From contig NZ_CP049861.1 in NCBI RefSeq assembly GCF_011299615.1, forward strand, positions 1,922,001 through 1,986,000: a stretch of 64,000 bases of DNA, given 5' to 3'. Under the pieces are notes generated by a model. That model saw nothing but the letters and a program-made list of their open reading frames with translations. It was not told the DNA's origin and made no database searches. The DNA comes from Erysipelothrix sp. HDW6C (GTDB taxonomy: Bacteria; Bacillota_I; Bacilli_A; Erysipelotrichales; Erysipelotrichaceae). Shown in pieces: positions 35,471 to 44,642 of this stretch; position 1 is the first letter of the stretch, and every line of letters begins with the position of its first letter. Position numbers and translations under genes: made by a program.

Positions 35471-36346
35471 ATGGAGAACTATGGGAGTACATTTCGCGAA
35501 TTGCGACAGAATAAGGGTTATACACTAAAAGAAGTCGCTGCGGGAATCATGAGCGTGACTGCTCTCTCAAATTTCGAAAATGGTATATCTGATATCAAAT
35601 CAACGAATCTATTCAAATTGCTTTTTCGGATTCAAGTATCGACTTCAGAGTTTCTTTACACCCATGATCAATTTGGAAACGTGGACCTGAATCGCATTAT
35701 TCAAAATATTGAAAGTGCTCGAAATTCTAACGAAGATGCAGCACTCACATTAAGGAATTTGGGCACTACCTACCAGACATTATATTTGCGTACGCAAGAA
35801 AAACACTTTCAATACGTCGCAATTCTGTGTGAGTATATGGCTGACCCAGAGTGTTTGAGTTCTGGGAGTAAGCGAGTCTTACAGCACTATCTTTTAAACG
35901 TCAAGCGATTTGATGAATTTGAATTCTATCTTATGCAATACTTGAGTGAGTTCTTTACAACTACTGAACTTGCTGCGCTCTACACGCGTATGGATAAAGA
36001 CATTACGAATCTCTCCCCTTTTACAAAAACGAACCGTCATCATATTTATATCAATCGTTGCTTTCATTTAATCCGTCGTAGCGAAGTGAAACTTGCACGA
36101 TTGACTTTGGATGCATACAAGCGTATTGAACCAATTCCAAAAATCGAAAGTATCGAGAAATTCATACTTGCGCGTTTTCTTGATGGTCTTATCCAAATCG
36201 CTGAAGGTAAATCAGAGGGTGAATCGTTATGCCGTGAATCCTTGCATGCTTTTTCAATACTTGACGGTTTCGAGGATGCACTCGCAAAACTTGATTCATG
36301 GATTGCATTCGCTAAAGACCTCAATATGGAAGGGGCGACAGTATGA
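35471..36346 (+). CDS. Rgg/GadR/MutR-like transcriptional regulator, copy 1
   Basis: The 291-residue protein has an N-terminal XRE helix-turn-helix (about 6-62: TFRELRQNKGYTLKEVAAG, VTALSNFENG). A long all-helical C-terminal part resembles the Rgg/MutR peptide-sensing repeat domain. Rgg proteins usually bind small pheromone peptides. AGAGGT precedes the ATG. The next gene starts within its stop codon (ATGA). No obvious short hydrophobic pheromone ORF is visible next to it. Confidence 0.82.
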   Translation: MENYGSTFRELRQNKGYTLKEVAAGIMSVTALSNFENGISDIKSTNLFKLLFRIQVSTSEFLYTHDQFGNVDLNRIIQNIESARNSNEDAALTLRNLGTTYQTLYLRTQEKHFQYVAILCEYMADPECLSSGSKRVLQHYLLNVKRFDEFEFYLMQYLSEFFTTTELAALYTRMDKDITNLSPFTKTNRHHIYINRCFHLIRRSEVKLARLTLDAYKRIEPIPKIESIEKFILARFLDGLIQIAEGKSEGESLCRESLHAFSILDGFEDALAKLDSWIAFAKDLNMEGATV

Positions 36347-37233
36347 GTAATTATGGACCAACATTTCGCAAATTGCGGATTGAGAAGGGCTTTTCGAGTA
36401 AGGAAGTTGCGGCGGGAATCCTAAGCGTCACGGCACTGGCAAACTTTGAAAATGGAGCATCCGATATAAAATTCAACAAACTCATTAAGTTACTTAATCG
36501 AATTTGTGTCGACCTTGCCTATTTCACGTACTTAAGTGATGATACAGCTTCCGATGATATTCATCGCATTCTATCCGAGATCATGGATTTAGCGCACAGT
36601 GATGCAATCTCGACATATGGCACCAATAGACTCTATGAGAAATACCGTGACCTTTATCAATCAACACACGAAAGTGCTCATTATCTTGTGAGTATTTATA
36701 ACAACTTTTCTTCAGGAGTCGATCGAGTCACCCCCGAAGAAATTGCCTTCTATCGCAATCACATTCAATCGATTACAATGATGAATGAATTCGAACTGTA
36801 TCTCATGAGCGCAACAAGTGAGTTTTTCTCAATCGAAGAACTTAAAGATATTGATGATCGCAAAAGTGAAGACATTTTATCGCTCCCCCCCAGTTCAATC
36901 ATCGAAATTAACCATATCTATATTAATCAGTGCTTTCACTATCTCCGTCGCAATAACGTTGCCTTAGCAAAACATAGTATTGCTTTGCTTGATGCTTTGA
37001 ATCTTCCTAAGAATTTTGAAAACAGCGTTTCATACTTCTTCCGTCATTTCATTACGGGACTTGTTGATATTTTACAAGGGAACATGGATGGTAAGAAACG
37101 ATGTTATCAATTATTAGACGTAATGGAAACATTCCCTGCATATCAGCCAACAATTCGACAACTTCACCTTTGGACTGAAGTCATCGAGAAGATGTACAAC
37201 GATAACAACGCATTGAATACTGGGTCAAAGTAG
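36343..37233 (+). CDS. Rgg/GadR/MutR-like transcriptional regulator, copy 2
   Basis: This 296-residue paralogue of the preceding protein matches through the helix-turn-helix (TFRKLRIEKGFSSKEVAAGILSVTAL in the same order) and diverges in the helical C-terminus. A shared ancestor and tandem duplication are likely. The four-base overlap implies coupled translation and fixed stoichiometry, raising the possibility of heteromers. Confidence 0.82.
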   Translation: MSNYGPTFRKLRIEKGFSSKEVAAGILSVTALANFENGASDIKFNKLIKLLNRICVDLAYFTYLSDDTASDDIHRILSEIMDLAHSDAISTYGTNRLYEKYRDLYQSTHESAHYLVSIYNNFSSGVDRVTPEEIAFYRNHIQSITMMNEFELYLMSATSEFFSIEELKDIDDRKSEDILSLPPSSIIEINHIYINQCFHYLRRNNVALAKHSIALLDALNLPKNFENSVSYFFRHFITGLVDILQGNMDGKKRCYQLLDVMETFPAYQPTIRQLHLWTEVIEKMYNDNNALNTGSK

Positions 37234-37493: not shown

Positions 37494-38435
37494 TTATTTC
37501 TTCAAGTTACAAGCAACAAAGTGGTTATCACCAACTTGATGCCAGTCTGTATCGGCAACCGCATTTACGCGGAAGTTCTCAAAGTCATAAACATCGTTCT
37601 CAGCTTCGTAGAAGTCTAAGGCGTCGTTTTTTACGTCTTTACGTGAGTTAATATCAGTCTTCAAGAATGCAGCTAACAAACGTTTCGTATATGGATGTTT
37701 TGCATCGTTGAATATTGTAAGAATTGGTGCAGCTTCAACAATTTTACCACCATACATAACAATAACATCATCGGCCATTTGGCTAATAACCCCAAGGTCA
37801 TGGGTAATAAAGAGAATTGATGTATCAGAGTTTTGTTTCAGATCATTCATCAATTTTAAGATTTCTGCTTGAATAATTACGTCAAGTGCAGTTGTAGGCT
37901 CATCCGCAATCAAGAGTTTTGGATTACATGCTAAAGCCATCGCAATCATAACACGTTGACTCATCCCACCTGATAGTTGGAATGGGTAACTGTTTAAGAC
38001 GTTTTTTGCATTGGTAATCTTAACCGCTTCAAGAAGTTGTAACGAACGATCATACGCTTCTTTCTTTGACATTCCACGGTGAAGGATTAAGACTTCACTG
38101 ATTTGTCGTTTAACGGTAAGAACTGGGTTTAAACTTGTCATCGGTTCTTGGAAAATAACCGAAACTTCGTTCCCACGGTACTTGCGTAATTCATTTTCGG
38201 AAAGTTCCGAAATCACTTTACCATCAAGGATAATTTCACCCTCATAGATTTTTTGGTTTGGTTCAAAAAGTTTGAGAATGGACATTGCTGTCTGACTCTT
38301 TCCACTTCCTGACTCACCAACAATCCCAAGTGTGCGTCCTTTTTCAAGTTTAAAGCTAACGCCATTTACGGCTTTAACCAAACCACGTTTGGTATCAAAG
38401 TAAGTGTGTAAGTTTTTTACCTCTAATAGACTCAT
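37494..38435 (-). CDS. oppD: Oligopeptide ABC transporter ATPase OppD
   Basis: The 313-residue ATPase has Walker A GESGSGKSQ, Q-loop IFQEPMTSLNPV, signature LSGGMSQRV, Walker B LLIADEPTTALD and H-loop ITHD. The C-terminal HPYTKRLLAAF segment is the oligo/dipeptide ATPase tail. It forms the NBD heterodimer with the OppF protein. It overlaps oppF by four bases and follows it, the reverse of the common D-F order. Length is normal, unlike OppF. Confidence 0.95.
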   Translation of the reverse strand: MSLLEVKNLHTYFDTKRGLVKAVNGVSFKLEKGRTLGIVGESGSGKSQTAMSILKLFEPNQKIYEGEIILDGKVISELSENELRKYRGNEVSVIFQEPMTSLNPVLTVKRQISEVLILHRGMSKKEAYDRSLQLLEAVKITNAKNVLNSYPFQLSGGMSQRVMIAMALACNPKLLIADEPTTALDVIIQAEILKLMNDLKQNSDTSILFITHDLGVISQMADDVIVMYGGKIVEAAPILTIFNDAKHPYTKRLLAAFLKTDINSRKDVKNDALDFYEAENDVYDFENFRVNAVADTDWHQVGDNHFVACNLKK

Positions 38436-39907
38436 GCGCTTACCTCCTCATCTGATTTTAGAAGACGACATGCAACAAAGTGATCCGGAGATACTTCGAA
38501 CCAGTCTTTATCTGCTTCACCTGTTTCTTTGTAGGTGAAGTCGAAACGACTGTCATGTGTTTCTTCAAGAATTTTTTGAATTTCTTCCTCTTCGGACTTC
38601 ATGCGTGGAATCGCTGCAAGCAAGGCCTTTGTATAAGGATGTTGTGGATTTGAGAAGATTTCTTCTGCAGGTGCTAACTCTACTAAGTTACCAAAGTACA
38701 TAACACCAATACGGTCACTAATATAACGGACGACACCAAGGTCATGCGTAATAAAGAGGTATGTTAAGTTATTCTCTTCTTTTAAATCTTGGAGTAAGTT
38801 AATGACTTGTGACTGGATTGAAACATCAAGTGCAGAAACAGCTTCATCACAAACGATGAATTTAGGGTTCAAGGCTAACGCACGTGCAATTCCGATACGT
38901 TGGCGTTGTCCACCCGAGAACTGGTGTGGATAACGATGAATGAATTTTGCATCCAATCCACATTTTTCCATGATGTCAATGATGTAGTCATTGTATTCTT
39001 TACTCTTGTTATTTGGGAAAATCTTATGAGCGATTAACCCCTCACCAATGATATTACCAACTGTTAAGCGGGGATCAAGTGATGAATACGGATCTTGGAA
39101 AATAATTTGTAAGTCTTTACGGAGTAAGCGAATTTCCTTCTTCGTAAGGGATGACAAATCAATACCATTGTCCAATTTTGATTCGAATTTATCGAAGTCG
39201 GTGTTGTTTACAAGGGTATCTTTAAGTTTTTGTACATCTTGCTTCGCTGCATCATTTGCGACACTTGCGGCTTCAAATTCTTTTTTCAATCCATCGACGG
39301 TCTTTGAAGCAACGCCTGTTGCTTTCGCACGTTGTTCTTCGGCATCAATTTTTAAGTGAAGGTTTGCGACTGCAGAACCTTTTTCATATTGTGCAACAAG
39401 TAATTTTGTAACTTCATCCAAGTTGCTGTGTGTTAACAGTCCACCCGCAAGACGGAAGATGTTTCCGTACTTTGTATCATAATCGATACGTGCTACACGA
39501 AGTGCTTCATTCGATGTTAAGAATGCATCACCGCTTGCAGTTTTTGCTGCAACCTTCAATGCATCAAGGTTTGCTTTATCTTTAGCATGGTCTGGGAACA
39601 CTTTAGGAATTGATGTGTATACTTTTTTAACGTAATTTGGCATCATTCCTTCAATTGTTTCACCATAGTAGAGTGTATCGCCACCTGTTTGGTCATAAAG
39701 TTGGATTAGAGTACGTCCGAATGTAGATTTACCACATCCAGACTCTCCTACTAAACCTAATGTTTCCCCTTCAAGAATATCAATTGTGATGTTCTTGTTT
39801 GCTTTTACATATTCTTGAGTACGTTGGAATACGCTTGTTTTCTTAATTGGAAAATATTTTTGTAAATGTTCAACTTTTAGAATTACTTTATCTTTTGAAA
39901 TTGTCAT
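38432..39907 (-). CDS. oppF: Oligopeptide ABC transporter ATPase OppF with a ~160-residue insertion
   Basis: The protein has 491 residues where about 310-330 is usual. Walker A GESGCGKST is at 54-62 and the normal strand GDTLYYGE ends near 83. Residues about 86-248 then form an extra, mostly helical segment (for example TVDGLKKEFEAASVANDAAK). The ordinary sequence resumes with KKEIRLLRKDLQIIFQDPYSSLDPR split over 256-280. Signature SGGQRQR (331-337), Walker B FIVCDEAVSALD and H-loop FITHD follow. The insertion interrupts no catalytic motif. The gene starts 12 bases after oppC, with GGAGG. Confidence 0.93.
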   Translation of the reverse strand: MTISKDKVILKVEHLQKYFPIKKTSVFQRTQEYVKANKNITIDILEGETLGLVGESGCGKSTFGRTLIQLYDQTGGDTLYYGETIEGMMPNYVKKVYTSIPKVFPDHAKDKANLDALKVAAKTASGDAFLTSNEALRVARIDYDTKYGNIFRLAGGLLTHSNLDEVTKLLVAQYEKGSAVANLHLKIDAEEQRAKATGVASKTVDGLKKEFEAASVANDAAKQDVQKLKDTLVNNTDFDKFESKLDNGIDLSSLTKKEIRLLRKDLQIIFQDPYSSLDPRLTVGNIIGEGLIAHKIFPNNKSKEYNDYIIDIMEKCGLDAKFIHRYPHQFSGGQRQRIGIARALALNPKFIVCDEAVSALDVSIQSQVINLLQDLKEENNLTYLFITHDLGVVRYISDRIGVMYFGNLVELAPAEEIFSNPQHPYTKALLAAIPRMKSEEEEIQKILEETHDSRFDFTYKETGEADKDWFEVSPDHFVACRLLKSDEEVSA

Positions 39908-39919
39908 ATTCTACGCCTC

Positions 39920-41779
39920 CTATTTCTGATTCGATCGTGGGTCCATAGCATCTCTCAATGCGTCCCCAATAAAGTTAACGGATAATGCTGTTGCAAGAAC
40001 ACAGACGGATGGAAGAATCCATTGCCACATGTAGTTCTCAAGAACATAAGTCTTTGCAGCACCAGTCAACATATTACCCCATGATGGGCTTGGAGGTGTA
40101 ACACCAAAACCAAGATAGGATAGACCCGCTTCAGTTAGTAAACTTCCCGCGTATCCAAGTGTCATGCTAACGATGATGAAACTTACGACTGAAGGCAAGA
40201 TATGCTTAAGCATGATTGCACCTTCTTTAAGTCCAAGAGCACGCGCTGCAAGCACGAAGTCTTTCTCACGTTCAGCCAAGATTTGTCCACGAACAAGGCG
40301 TGCAACTCCTGGCCAACTGATAACACCAAGAATAACCATGATCATTGTGATTCGGACTTCTTGTGATGTTTCGATTGGTAAGAATGCGGACAATGTGATT
40401 GCTAAAGGAATGAATGGGAATGCCGATACAACTTCTGCAAAACGCATCAATAAGTTATCGACCCATTTACCATAGTAACCCGCAATCAACCCGACAAACA
40501 CACCAATAATTGTTGAAATAATCATCGCAACCGCACCAACAGTTAATGAGATACGACCACCTTGTAGCAAGCGTGTTAAGACATCACGTCCAAACGCATC
40601 CGATCCAAGACGGAATCCGTTATTACCCCATCCGGTGACTTGGTTGTCTGATGAGATCGCATAACTGCTGAAGAAGTCTCCATGAATTGATTCGATATTG
40701 CCATTTTTCACAGCCGTTGGAAGTTCAGTTAAACCAAATTTCCCACGTCCCCATGTTTGAACATTGTGAGCATCATCAAGAATTGATAATGAAGAACGTG
40801 TTGCTGAGATATCTACAATATTTCCTGTGTGTTCTGGAACATTTAGAGCACCGTATTGTGCAGAACCCCATGTATGAACGTTACCTTCCGAATCAAGTGC
40901 CATCGCTGTATTTGATGCAATTACGACATCAACAACTTTAACACTACCGTCGGTAAGATTTTCAGGAATTGCAGTAATTTCAGTTCCCTTTTGTCCAAAG
41001 ACACGAAGTGAACCGTCTTTCATAATTGTAATAATATTGTATGAACCTGCAATGAGTTTCTCAGTTTCACCTTGTAACTCTTTTGGAATATTATTTAAGT
41101 TGTTTGGTAATGTACTACCCCAAACAATAATTCGGTCATTCTCAGTAAGAATTGCTGAAAAATCAATTCCAGTTGCCAATTGTTTGATTTTCTCTCCCTT
41201 AAGAAGATCTTTTGGACTGGGTTCTCCCATTGGATCACGGAAGTCAATTTCACTTTGATTAAAAGTATTTGAACCAGCTCCGATAAATTCATTATCTTCA
41301 GTAACAGCAATAACATGCTTGTCACCTGCTTCAATCATTTTAACCTTTTTTCCTTCTGTTAACGCAACGATACTTTTAACATCATATTTCTTTTCAGGAT
41401 TTTGGCCCCAGAAATATACTTTCCCTTGGTCATCCAAAGCAACAGTGAATGATGTTCCACTTGAAATCGAAACAATATTCTTGCCTTGAATTTCTTTTGG
41501 TGGATTTACAAAACCCGTACCCGGTGCAAGGTTGTTAAGTGTCGGTTCGTTATCATACATATCATAATCCATAAGCGCAGTCGATCCAAAGACGATTGCA
41601 AAGATTAAAACAAAGACTGTTAAACCAAATACCCCTAATTTATTACTAAAAAAGTTTTGAACAATTTGTTTTGTAGGACTAATAACTACGTTGTCGTCAA
41701 TCATTTCCTCAATATCATCATGACGCATTCCGCCTGGTGCAAACAAGCGAGTAAATAGTGATTTCTTTTTCTTCTTCAT
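39920..41779 (-). CDS. oppC: Oligopeptide ABC transporter permease OppC with an RCC1-like seven-repeat extracytoplasmic domain
   Basis: The protein has 619 residues where about 300 is usual. The cytoplasmic N-terminus and TM1 (about 48-70) are followed by a segment from about 96 to 388. It contains seven related repeats ending in a Trp/Phe/Ala-Gly motif: YFWG (122-125), IGAG (166-169), IVWG (218-221), RVFG (259-262), HTWG (302-305), QTWG (341-344) and TGWG (382-385). Each is preceded by an A/S-I/L-T-x-DG-like strand. The spacing is 39-52 residues, as in RCC1 propellers. The ordinary OppC core then begins at LGSDAFGRDVLTRLLQGGRIS (split) with its BPD TM domain and EAA loop. Confidence 0.93.
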   Translation of the reverse strand: MKKKKKSLFTRLFAPGGMRHDDIEEMIDDNVVISPTKQIVQNFFSNKLGVFGLTVFVLIFAIVFGSTALMDYDMYDNEPTLNNLAPGTGFVNPPKEIQGKNIVSISSGTSFTVALDDQGKVYFWGQNPEKKYDVKSIVALTEGKKVKMIEAGDKHVIAVTEDNEFIGAGSNTFNQSEIDFRDPMGEPSPKDLLKGEKIKQLATGIDFSAILTENDRIIVWGSTLPNNLNNIPKELQGETEKLIAGSYNIITIMKDGSLRVFGQKGTEITAIPENLTDGSVKVVDVVIASNTAMALDSEGNVHTWGSAQYGALNVPEHTGNIVDISATRSSLSILDDAHNVQTWGRGKFGLTELPTAVKNGNIESIHGDFFSSYAISSDNQVTGWGNNGFRLGSDAFGRDVLTRLLQGGRISLTVGAVAMIISTIIGVFVGLIAGYYGKWVDNLLMRFAEVVSAFPFIPLAITLSAFLPIETSQEVRITMIMVILGVISWPGVARLVRGQILAEREKDFVLAARALGLKEGAIMLKHILPSVVSFIIVSMTLGYAGSLLTEAGLSYLGFGVTPPSPSWGNMLTGAAKTYVLENYMWQWILPSVCVLATALSVNFIGDALRDAMDPRSNQK

Positions 41780-41789
41780 AAACTCGCTC

Positions 41790-42764
41790 CTAATCTAATT
41801 TAACACGAGGGTCAACCAACGCGTATCCAATATCCATAATAATGTTCGCAATTAATGAAAGCGATGCAAAGAACATATTAAGTGCTAGAACCATCATGAA
41901 ATCTCGGTTTGTAACAGCTTCAACAAGAATCTTTCCAATTCCATCAATCGAGAAGATTGATTCGGTAATTGCCGCACCACTGAAAAGTCCGGCTAAACTA
42001 CCTGCAACAATTGTAACTACGGGAATCAATGCATTTCGGAATGCATGTGAATAGATTACAACTTTGTTTGAGAGACCTTTCGCACGTGCTGTACGAATAT
42101 AGTCACTGCTCAATACATCTATCATCGCGTTACGAACATAACGAATAATTGACGCAAATGAACCAATTGTAATGGCAAATATTGGTAATGCCATTGAATT
42201 TAACCAGTCTAATGCATACGCAAGGCCAACTTTCCCCTGACCTGCACCCGCACCTGATGAAGGGAACCATTTAAGTTTTCCTGCAAAGATGTAGATTAAC
42301 ATTAACCCAATTAAAACAACCGGCAACGACATTCCGACCAGCGAAATGACTTGCCAAATCTTATCGAACCATCCACCACGCTTAACAGCAGAGTAGATTC
42401 CGACAAAGATCGAAATTACAAATGAAATCACAAATGAAATTAAATTTAGAACAACTGTATTTTTCATTGGTTTCGCGATTACATCGATTACTGGTTTATT
42501 ATATTTTGTTGAATAACCCAAGTCACCACTAACAGTACGTCCCACCCAACGTATGTATTGTTCTGGTAACGATTTATCCATACCAAACTGAGCTTCAATG
42601 CGTTTGTATGTTTCTTGGTATAGAACGGGGTCCTTGATATTCGGATTAATCATCCCTTTAATAGGGTCTCCTGGCATAATTTTGACTAGTGAAAACAGCA
42701 AAATTGAGATCATAATTATAACCGGAACAAGTGATGCCATTCTCCTAACTAGGTATTTAAACAT
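41790..42764 (-). CDS. oppB: Oligopeptide ABC transporter permease OppB
   Basis: The 324-residue protein has TM1 at about 9-30, the family MPGDPI motif, and the EAA loop DYIRTARAKGLSNKVV. Later TM segments contain the GAAITESIFSIDGIG signature. It is the partner of the OppC-type protein. I start at 42762-42764, where TAAAGGAGAAATT precedes ATG; the longer reading covers the hairpin upstream. Length is normal, so only OppC and OppF are elaborated. Confidence 0.95.
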   Translation of the reverse strand: MFKYLVRRMASLVPVIIMISILLFSLVKIMPGDPIKGMINPNIKDPVLYQETYKRIEAQFGMDKSLPEQYIRWVGRTVSGDLGYSTKYNKPVIDVIAKPMKNTVVLNLISFVISFVISIFVGIYSAVKRGGWFDKIWQVISLVGMSLPVVLIGLMLIYIFAGKLKWFPSSGAGAGQGKVGLAYALDWLNSMALPIFAITIGSFASIIRYVRNAMIDVLSSDYIRTARAKGLSNKVVIYSHAFRNALIPVVTIVAGSLAGLFSGAAITESIFSIDGIGKILVEAVTNRDFMMVLALNMFFASLSLIANIIMDIGYALVDPRVKLD

Positions 42765-42791
42765 ATAAATTTCTCCTTTACTTCTACGTCG

Positions 42792-42817
42792 TAAGAAGTG
42801 CCGCAAGGCACTTCTTA
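42792..42817 (-). other. Intercistronic hairpin between oppA and oppB
   Basis: TAAGAAGTGCC and GGCACTTCTTA form a perfect 11-bp stem with a four-base loop 28 bases after the oppA stop. There is no T run, so it is more likely an mRNA stabiliser or partial attenuator than a full terminator. Confidence 0.7.
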
Positions 42818-42845
42818 TCAAGTATTAATGCTTTAACTTCTTGTA

Positions 42846-44642
42846 TTATTTAACGTCAATATAAACGATTTGTCTTGCCCAGTCAAGTTCAGGAGTAATG
42901 CTATCCAATCCTGTAACACGATCTAAAGCAATATCGAAGTATTGATTTGAATACAATGGCACTGAAGGAAGTAATTTATTCCAAACTTTAAAGTACTCAA
43001 CAACAGCTTTCGAGAATCCTTCACGGTCTTCTGGAGCACGATTTCTTAGGTTCATGATTGCTGCATCCAATTCTGGATCTGCAATATCACCCCAGTTTAA
43101 TCCTGATCCTACCCAATCTGAGTGATGTCCTGTGTAAGGGTCATAGATTGATGTAAATGATGTAGCAAGGTTAAATGCGTTGTAGTCGTTTTCGACACGG
43201 CCTTGCATGTAGTCACCAAGAGTTGAGAATTCACCTTGTTGAACGAAGTACTCAATACCAGCAGCTTTAGCATTTGGTACTAATTGTGAAACAACTAAGT
43301 CAGTAACAGCGTTCTTTTCAGAACCAAAGTGCTTGATAACAAGTTTTTCACCTTTGCTGTTGTAACGGAAGTAGTTTGTTGCTGCATCTGAATTTGCTTT
43401 TGCAGGATCAAATGCTGTAGTTCCGTCTGACTCAAATTTATAATCAGTTGTGTCAAGTAGTTCATTAGCTTTTGTTAGGTTGAATGTATATTGAATTAAA
43501 TCGTTGTCTAATTCATCTTTGTTTTCTTTGTAGAACCATTGTGATAATCCGAATGGAGCATTAACAACAACACCGTATCCACCAACAACCTTGCTGACGA
43601 ATTCGTTACGGTCTAGTAAGTATCCAATAGCTTGACGTACTTCAGTAATTTGTGTAGGTCCTTTGTTAGCTTTAAATTGGATCATACCGTATCCATTACG
43701 TGGGTATGAAATTAATTGGTAACCAGCTTCTTTTGAAGGTTCGATTACGCTTGATTCGATATTACCTGGTGATAAGTCAATTTCACCATTTCCTAATGCT
43801 TGAACTGTTACGTCACTTTCAACAAGTTTAATAACAACTTTACCGATTGAAGGTTTTTTGCCTTCGAAGTTTCCTGCATAGTTTTCGTTAGCAACTAATA
43901 CAGCTTGGTTATTTTCGTATGTTTCAAGAACATAAGGTCCAGCTGATACTGTTGGTTTGAAACGTTCTTTTTCAGAAACATTCTTAACTGCAGCAGCGAT
44001 TTCTTCTGCTGTGTTGTCAAAGCCATTTCCATCAGCGTTTAATTTTGCTTCAGGGAACCATACATGCATTGGTTCTGGTGAGACTGTTGCATATGATGTT
44101 TCGAAATAGTATGGTAAACGATCAGCAGCGATTGTTACTGAGAAATTTGAATCATCGATGTATTTTACACCTTCAAATTTATCTGCTTCGCCTTTTGAAT
44201 ATGCTTCGTATCCTACGAGGTCATATCCTGTGCTATCCATTTTAGCTTGCTCTAACCATCCAGCTTGACCGCGGAATAGAAGTGCGCCAACGTATGATTT
44301 AGCTGTAAGAGCTTCACCATCTGAGAATTTTAATCCCTCGTTGAGTGTAAATGTGTAAGTTTTGCTTCCGTCAGCGTTGTCTGTTGTTACCAATTGTTTA
44401 ACAACACTTTCGTCAAGTTTCAACTCAGCGGTTGTTGGGTCAACATAGAATGTGTCATACCCACTCATTAATTTTACTGCCCATTGGTCGTATGCATTGG
44501 TTCCGAAACCATTTACAAAGTCACCATTAAGTGAAGCAGGTGCAGCAACTGTTAATACCTTGTCTGCTGATGGTCCGCTTTTTGAACCACAGCCTGTAAG
44601 GACTAATAGAGCCGCTAGTAATACTACTGCGAATCTTTTCAT
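42846..44642 (-). CDS. oppA: Oligopeptide-binding lipoprotein OppA
   Basis: The 598-residue SBP_bac_5 (cluster C) binding protein has a signal peptide with lipobox LTGC (Cys18). The N-terminal domain includes TYTFTLNEGLKFSDGEALTA and the family segment VSAGPYVLETYENN. The C-terminal lobe follows. It delivers peptides to OppB/C. GGGAGGAG precedes the start. It has its own strong promoter and is first in the operon. Confidence 0.94.
   Translation of the reverse strand: MKRFAVVLLAALLVLTGCGSKSGPSADKVLTVAAPASLNGDFVNGFGTNAYDQWAVKLMSGYDTFYVDPTTAELKLDESVVKQLVTTDNADGSKTYTFTLNEGLKFSDGEALTAKSYVGALLFRGQAGWLEQAKMDSTGYDLVGYEAYSKGEADKFEGVKYIDDSNFSVTIAADRLPYYFETSYATVSPEPMHVWFPEAKLNADGNGFDNTAEEIAAAVKNVSEKERFKPTVSAGPYVLETYENNQAVLVANENYAGNFEGKKPSIGKVVIKLVESDVTVQALGNGEIDLSPGNIESSVIEPSKEAGYQLISYPRNGYGMIQFKANKGPTQITEVRQAIGYLLDRNEFVSKVVGGYGVVVNAPFGLSQWFYKENKDELDNDLIQYTFNLTKANELLDTTDYKFESDGTTAFDPAKANSDAATNYFRYNSKGEKLVIKHFGSEKNAVTDLVVSQLVPNAKAAGIEYFVQQGEFSTLGDYMQGRVENDYNAFNLATSFTSIYDPYTGHHSDWVGSGLNWGDIADPELDAAIMNLRNRAPEDREGFSKAVVEYFKVWNKLLPSVPLYSNQYFDIALDRVTGLDSITPELDWARQIVYIDVK

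Follow-up and report, generated by a model that had tools for sequence, protein, structure and literature searches.

A seven-bladed RCC1/BLIP-II-type propeller in the TM1-TM2 loop of an OppC peptide permease: fold, single origin and possible role

In the window, the whole stretch of 64,000 nucleotides of Erysipelothrix sp. HDW6C that was analysed here, an oppC gene (39920..41779, reverse strand, as are all features of its operon given below) encodes a permease of 619 residues which, according to Pfam and a structural model, carries an inserted propeller. This raises the questions of whether the inserted repeats form a complete domain, how the permease acquired it and what such a domain would do on a peptide importer.

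Domain layout and fold

The first-pass annotation had described the protein as TM1, a block of seven repeats and a normal OppC core, outlining the RCC1-like block at 40600-41510, and both Pfam and the model bear out this layout. The OppC_N domain with TM1 (residues 34-86; 41522..41680) scored above the PF12911 cut-off (E 1.1e-7; 32.0 bits, cut-off 23.9), with a model helix at residues 47-69, and the core from TM2 onwards (residues 392-619; 39923..40606) contains BPD_transp_1 at residues 426-615 (E 6e-31; 108 bits, cut-off 26.4). Between them lies the propeller with its neck segments (residues 87-393; 40601..41521), which is matched in five stretches by RCC1_2 (PF13540; E 2.8e-31; 106.9 bits, cut-off 22) and also exceeds the cut-off of PF00415 (30.6 bits, cut-off 21.7), so that the RCC1 and permease families anticipated for this protein are both above threshold. 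The full-length RLD model WD40_RLD (PF25390) gave 132.2 bits, under its cut-off of 150, and OppC is therefore not assigned to it; the NCBIfam Opp4C equivalog NF045476 gave 319.3 bits, under its cut-off of 350, with the match split by the insert, and the protein is not placed there either. Since the seventh repeat, ending at residue 385, passes straight into the conserved LGSDxxGRD that starts the OppC core, the limits first drawn for the domain were accurate. On sequence and model, we identify the protein as the OppC permease of an OppABCFD peptide importer, peptide import itself being predicted.

The seven blade units, each of 24 residues, end in G125, G169, G221, G262, G305, G344 and G385. 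In the model they correspond to blade 1 at residues 102-125 (41405..41476; strands 102-107, 111-116 and 121-125), blade 2 at 146-169 (41273..41344), blade 3 at 198-221 (41117..41188), blade 4 at 239-262 (40994..41065), blade 5 at 282-305 (40865..40936), blade 6 at 321-344 (40748..40819) and blade 7 at 362-385 (40625..40696). These are the same glycine-ended units, at the same spacing of 39-52 residues, that had been picked out by eye from the letters. Their mean pairwise BLOSUM62 score was 20.9, whereas the region shuffled 2000 times gave -21.5 +/- 2.4 (maximum -10.1). The propeller of the window contains no cysteines.

Structure prediction from the single 619-residue sequence gave a pLDDT of 38 and was replaced by an AlphaFold run on a 30-row alignment (the window protein and 29 homologues), which yielded a model with mean pLDDT 85.3 and pTM 0.78. 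Across residues 87-393 the block pLDDT was mostly 88-96 and seven strand triplets were present, corresponding to a confident propeller of seven three-stranded blades. The best match among solved structures was BLIP-II (3qhy_B; Z 30.9, 2.1 A over 259 residues, model 87-377), followed by UVR8 and HERC2. Thus, neither of the outcomes named beforehand as fatal to the idea, a prediction with no propeller or segments that do not align to RCC1 repeats, was encountered, the second being judged from Pfam RCC1_2 and the structure superposition. The RCC1-like label holds as regards the seven blades, but the nearest solved fold is the compact three-stranded BLIP-II and not the larger blades of RCC1. Short strands occur at residues 87-88 and 388-389, the superposition spans full closed rings, and the model suggests that both chain ends of the propeller meet at the neck, closing the ring. 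Matches in BFVD to RCC1 proteins of giant virus and phage origin were set aside, as they reflect the fold only. The remainder of the protein superposed on E. coli OppC (8z21_B; Z 30.3, 278 of 278 residues, model 32-614) and also, by structure comparison and Foldseek alike, on M. tuberculosis OppC.

Operon, distribution and origin

In the window, oppC shares an operon with oppA (42846..44642), coding for a lipoprotein-type peptide-binding protein of 598 residues (SBP_bac_5, E 9e-47), oppB (41790..42821), a permease of 343 residues with a TTG start as listed (BPD_transp_1, E 6e-38), and the ATPase genes oppF (38432..39907; 491 residues) and oppD (37494..38435; 313 residues), the latter an open reading frame whose counterpart is an operon partner in related loci. 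Wherever the contig was long enough, propeller-oppC loci showed the same oppA-B-C-D-F (or F-D) operon. Two tandem Rgg-like regulators, 35% identical, lie at 35471-37233, convergent to the operon, and the first exceeds the TIGR01716 and Rgg_C cut-offs; as a possible functional hint, their homologues were sought in the available flanks of the other propeller operons and none was found. The OppD and OppF of the window (37494-39907) are without the C-terminal [4Fe-4S]-site cysteine motif. Loss of this motif was rejected as a feature of the subtype, the motif being kept in 38 of 43 OppD and 37 of 47 OppF of propeller operons. The genome of the window has a second Opp operon (L165; G000:C1:1221700-1225900) with an OppC that has no propeller; its OppB and OppC are distant from those of the window (34-40% identity) and its OppF and OppD are 60-73% identical to the OppF and OppD of the window, and by sequence it is a mosaic operon.

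To map the architecture, 295 genomes of the order were searched with the insert and, separately, with just the OppC core. About 50 genomes had frames, some 550-640 residues long, that matched the insert over its full length. In the core search there was a sharp step: all 49 matches with at least 51% identity lay in frames of 597-641 residues. The next core matches, at 49% identity, were ordinary OppCs of 303-330 residues, and two further propeller proteins occurred at 44-47% core identity (G051, G143). A scan of the genome collection found propeller-OppCs in Erysipelothrix, Dielma, Solobacterium, Anaerococcus, Oscillospiraceae, other Clostridia MAGs and Peloplasma (Acholeplasmatales), and further families of the class carry them too, some in longer forms. 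Long OppC homologues, which the annotation had proposed to map, thus range over Erysipelotrichales, Clostridia, Anaerococcus and Mollicutes. Among members of the genus without a propeller, the OppCs of G111, G130 and G151 all lie outside the propeller clade, and G181 is a fragmentary genome.

On a tree of the core only, with the insert omitted, the 64 sampled propeller-OppCs formed one clade (SH-aLRT 98) requiring a single change, and they still did so (96) with ten more relatives added; both trees came from quick searches, contain some long branches and have limited sampling of propeller-less relatives. Two changes were needed on the OppB tree, in which identical rows placed one OppB in both groups; we attribute the extra change to an additional partial OppC in L086 and read the tree as congruent. 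According to these sequences, one insertion event in an ancestral member of Bacillota gave OppC its propeller, no loss is seen among the 64 sampled OppCs, and propeller-OppC is a conserved architecture of single origin across Bacillota and Mycoplasmatota.

In close pairs, omega was 0.032-0.048 for the propeller and 0.013-0.036 for the core (NG86, some dS values being near saturation), values that place the propeller under strong purifying selection. In the long run it diverges faster than the core, with 53% identity versus 78% for the core between the window and L153. Conservation within it tracks the RCC1 repeat signature, the neck and blade 7; beyond the signature, the most conserved positions are mostly in the neck and blade 7 (N83, P86, P94, Q371, Y373, G388, G392). 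The linkers between blades are mostly variable, and the conservation analysis revealed no conserved outward-facing patch pointing to one fixed partner.

A second insertion is found in the OppF of the window, where about 165 extra residues separate Walker A from the Q-loop, a gap of 207 residues that normally measures 41. This distance was 143-420 in 44 of 45 propeller operons and 41-42 in 24 of 28 operons without propeller. Given that DppC contacts DppF specifically (PMC12136057), the OppC propeller and the OppF insert would both belong to one half of the transporter. A distinct Opp lineage in which the two form a two-sided system, sensing the docked binding protein and adjusting ATPase engagement, is conceivable, and we consider it improbable. 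Strict coupling of the two insertions was rejected: long OppF goes with plain OppC in L165 and in two other Erysipelothrix genomes (L166, L167), whose OppFs nest inside the long-OppF clade, as well as in two further family members (L213, L214), and L075 combines a propeller-OppC with a short OppF.

Possible roles at the OppA docking face

The TM1-TM2 region of E. coli DppC is periplasmic (PMC12136057), so the propeller would lie outside the membrane, and this homology to E. coli OppC/DppC supports its initial placement there, between TM1 and the core. In the E. coli importer, DppA caps DppB and DppC, and a scoop located after TM1 in DppB binds DppA, inserts into its cleft and closes off the cavity (PMC12136057). 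By analogy, the propeller would occupy in OppC, the partner subunit, the pseudo-symmetric position that corresponds to the scoop of OppB. We therefore propose, tentatively and with slightly less than even confidence, that it is a rigid ectodomain serving as a platform for OppA docking and peptide handover, a role suggested by its retention in wall-less bacteria, by its co-variation with OppA and by this counterpart position; more broadly, it probably helps the importer to receive peptides. The propeller would sit on the OppC half of the transporter, with its chain ends leaving the junction of blades 7 and 1 toward the permease, and the conserved neck and blade 7 would fix it there. The variable outward linkers might then touch the docked OppA, the incoming peptide or both, and the propeller could stabilise or orient OppA on OppBC, or help to seal the cavity during passage of the peptide to the channel. 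Neither guanine-nucleotide exchange nor wall anchoring is expected of it.

Co-variation was measured as correlations between distances across 30-32 non-redundant operons, with permutation p values. Propeller and OppA distances gave a partial correlation of 0.42 (p 0.0005) with OppC core, OppB and OppD as controls, and of 0.27-0.29 (p about 0.005) with cubic controls. The partial correlation of the propeller with OppC's own core was near zero or negative (-0.14 in the cubic-control run), and the OppF insert gave 0.06-0.12 in the cubic-control run. Because that run also retained signal with OppB (0.24) and with the N-terminal region of OppC (0.14-0.19), shared fast evolution may explain part of the propeller-OppA correlation, which is modest and lends weak support from sequence to docking or handover. 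Against a docking role, standard OppC works without such a domain, the genome of the window itself holds an Opp operon that has none, and the propeller surface shows no conserved outward patch that would suit one fixed partner.

Other functions have to be weighed against the same data. The annotation had listed binding to the wall as an option, and an anchor to peptidoglycan or wall polymers, or a spacer holding OppA off the wall, would suit the mostly Gram-positive lineages that host the propeller. However, four genomes with propeller-OppC (G399, which is Peloplasma-type and 99% complete, G352, G454 and G397) had no penicillin-binding transpeptidase when searched, and their Mur-ligase matches were weak and few at most, with just one in each of G352, G454 and G397, of about 412-432 residues and fitting FolC; for comparison, each Erysipelothrix genome searched has three transpeptidases and five Mur-ligase matches. 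As Mollicutes without peptidoglycan genes keep the propeller, wall binding is not the shared role, and we consider the anchor reading highly unlikely. Binding to host proteins, also put forward at the outset, is improbable as a general role, given that Peloplasma and many MAGs from gut and rumen belong to the clade. Nor does the propeller look like a tolerated passenger without function: standard OppC does not need one, but a single ancient insertion with 0 losses in 64 sampled members, its presence in 49 of 49 close cores in the order and an omega of 0.03-0.05 effectively refute this idea, to which we give almost no credence.

The propeller could also be a receptor for a ligand other than OppA (peptides, glycans, or proteins of a host or neighbour), concentrating substrate or sensing the surroundings with the transporter merely as its anchor. 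RCC1 and BLIP-II propellers are generally protein-binding scaffolds, the linkers between blades are variable, and some relatives have large extra linker insertions, such as the 1144-residue OppC of L200; yet its strict retention by bacteria with unrelated lifestyles points to a function linked to transport, and omega is low, not elevated, which leaves the receptor unlikely, if worth keeping in mind. A gate or plug of the extracellular entrance, or a size sieve or lid against large peptides, would agree with a propeller above the permease on the entrance side and with the conserved neck, but that face is also where OppA has to dock, and we infer that such a function is doubtful at best. The docking and handover platform remains the reading that we put forward. 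Being outside the membrane and probably folding on its own, the propeller should be easy to test.

Comparison with known systems

In the open-licence full-text literature we found no description of an OppC or other peptide permease bearing an RCC1-type or other propeller. The fusion is probably recorded in databases, since Pfam hits would show the architecture automatically, and is undescribed as far as this literature was checked. RCC1-like propellers with Ig folds are reported in other proteins of Hepatoplasmataceae (PMC10928387). An ancient and strictly kept propeller beside the docking face lets the control of OppA docking and peptide handover be studied as a natural experiment, and it marks out a transporter subtype that can be recognised among gut bacteria, wall-less bacteria and animal pathogens. 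A separate OppC clade (L205, L206, L207, L209, L210) has about 190-240 residues inserted in the TM1-TM2 loop, with no Pfam match in the insert in the three members tested, and in the OppC of L200 (L200:3857-7288) two large extra segments, one of them coiled-coil-like, interrupt the propeller linkers. These cases mark the loop as a recurrent site of domain insertion.

Among known propellers, BLIP-II (3QHY/1JTD) shares the compact-bladed, seven-bladed RCC1-type fold (259 of 271 residues, 26% identity), but it is a free secreted inhibitor, whereas the OppC propeller is part of a permease loop, and the similarity implies no action on beta-lactamases. The RLD propellers of RCC1, UVR8 and HERC share the repeat signature and the seven-bladed ring, and UVR8 is the best sequence match in the PDB (E 1e-21); they have longer repeats and four-stranded blades, and, unlike the OppC propeller, act within eukaryotic cells. 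The OppC and DppC of E. coli (8Z21, 8Z1V) and M. tuberculosis (8J5Q, 8WD9) have the permease fold of the remainder of the protein, but a TM1-TM2 loop that is short and domain-free. The scoop of DppB/OppB is likewise an extracytoplasmic element placed after permease TM1 at the docking face of the binding protein (PMC12136057), although it is a short two-helix motif of about 30 residues in the partner subunit and not a propeller.
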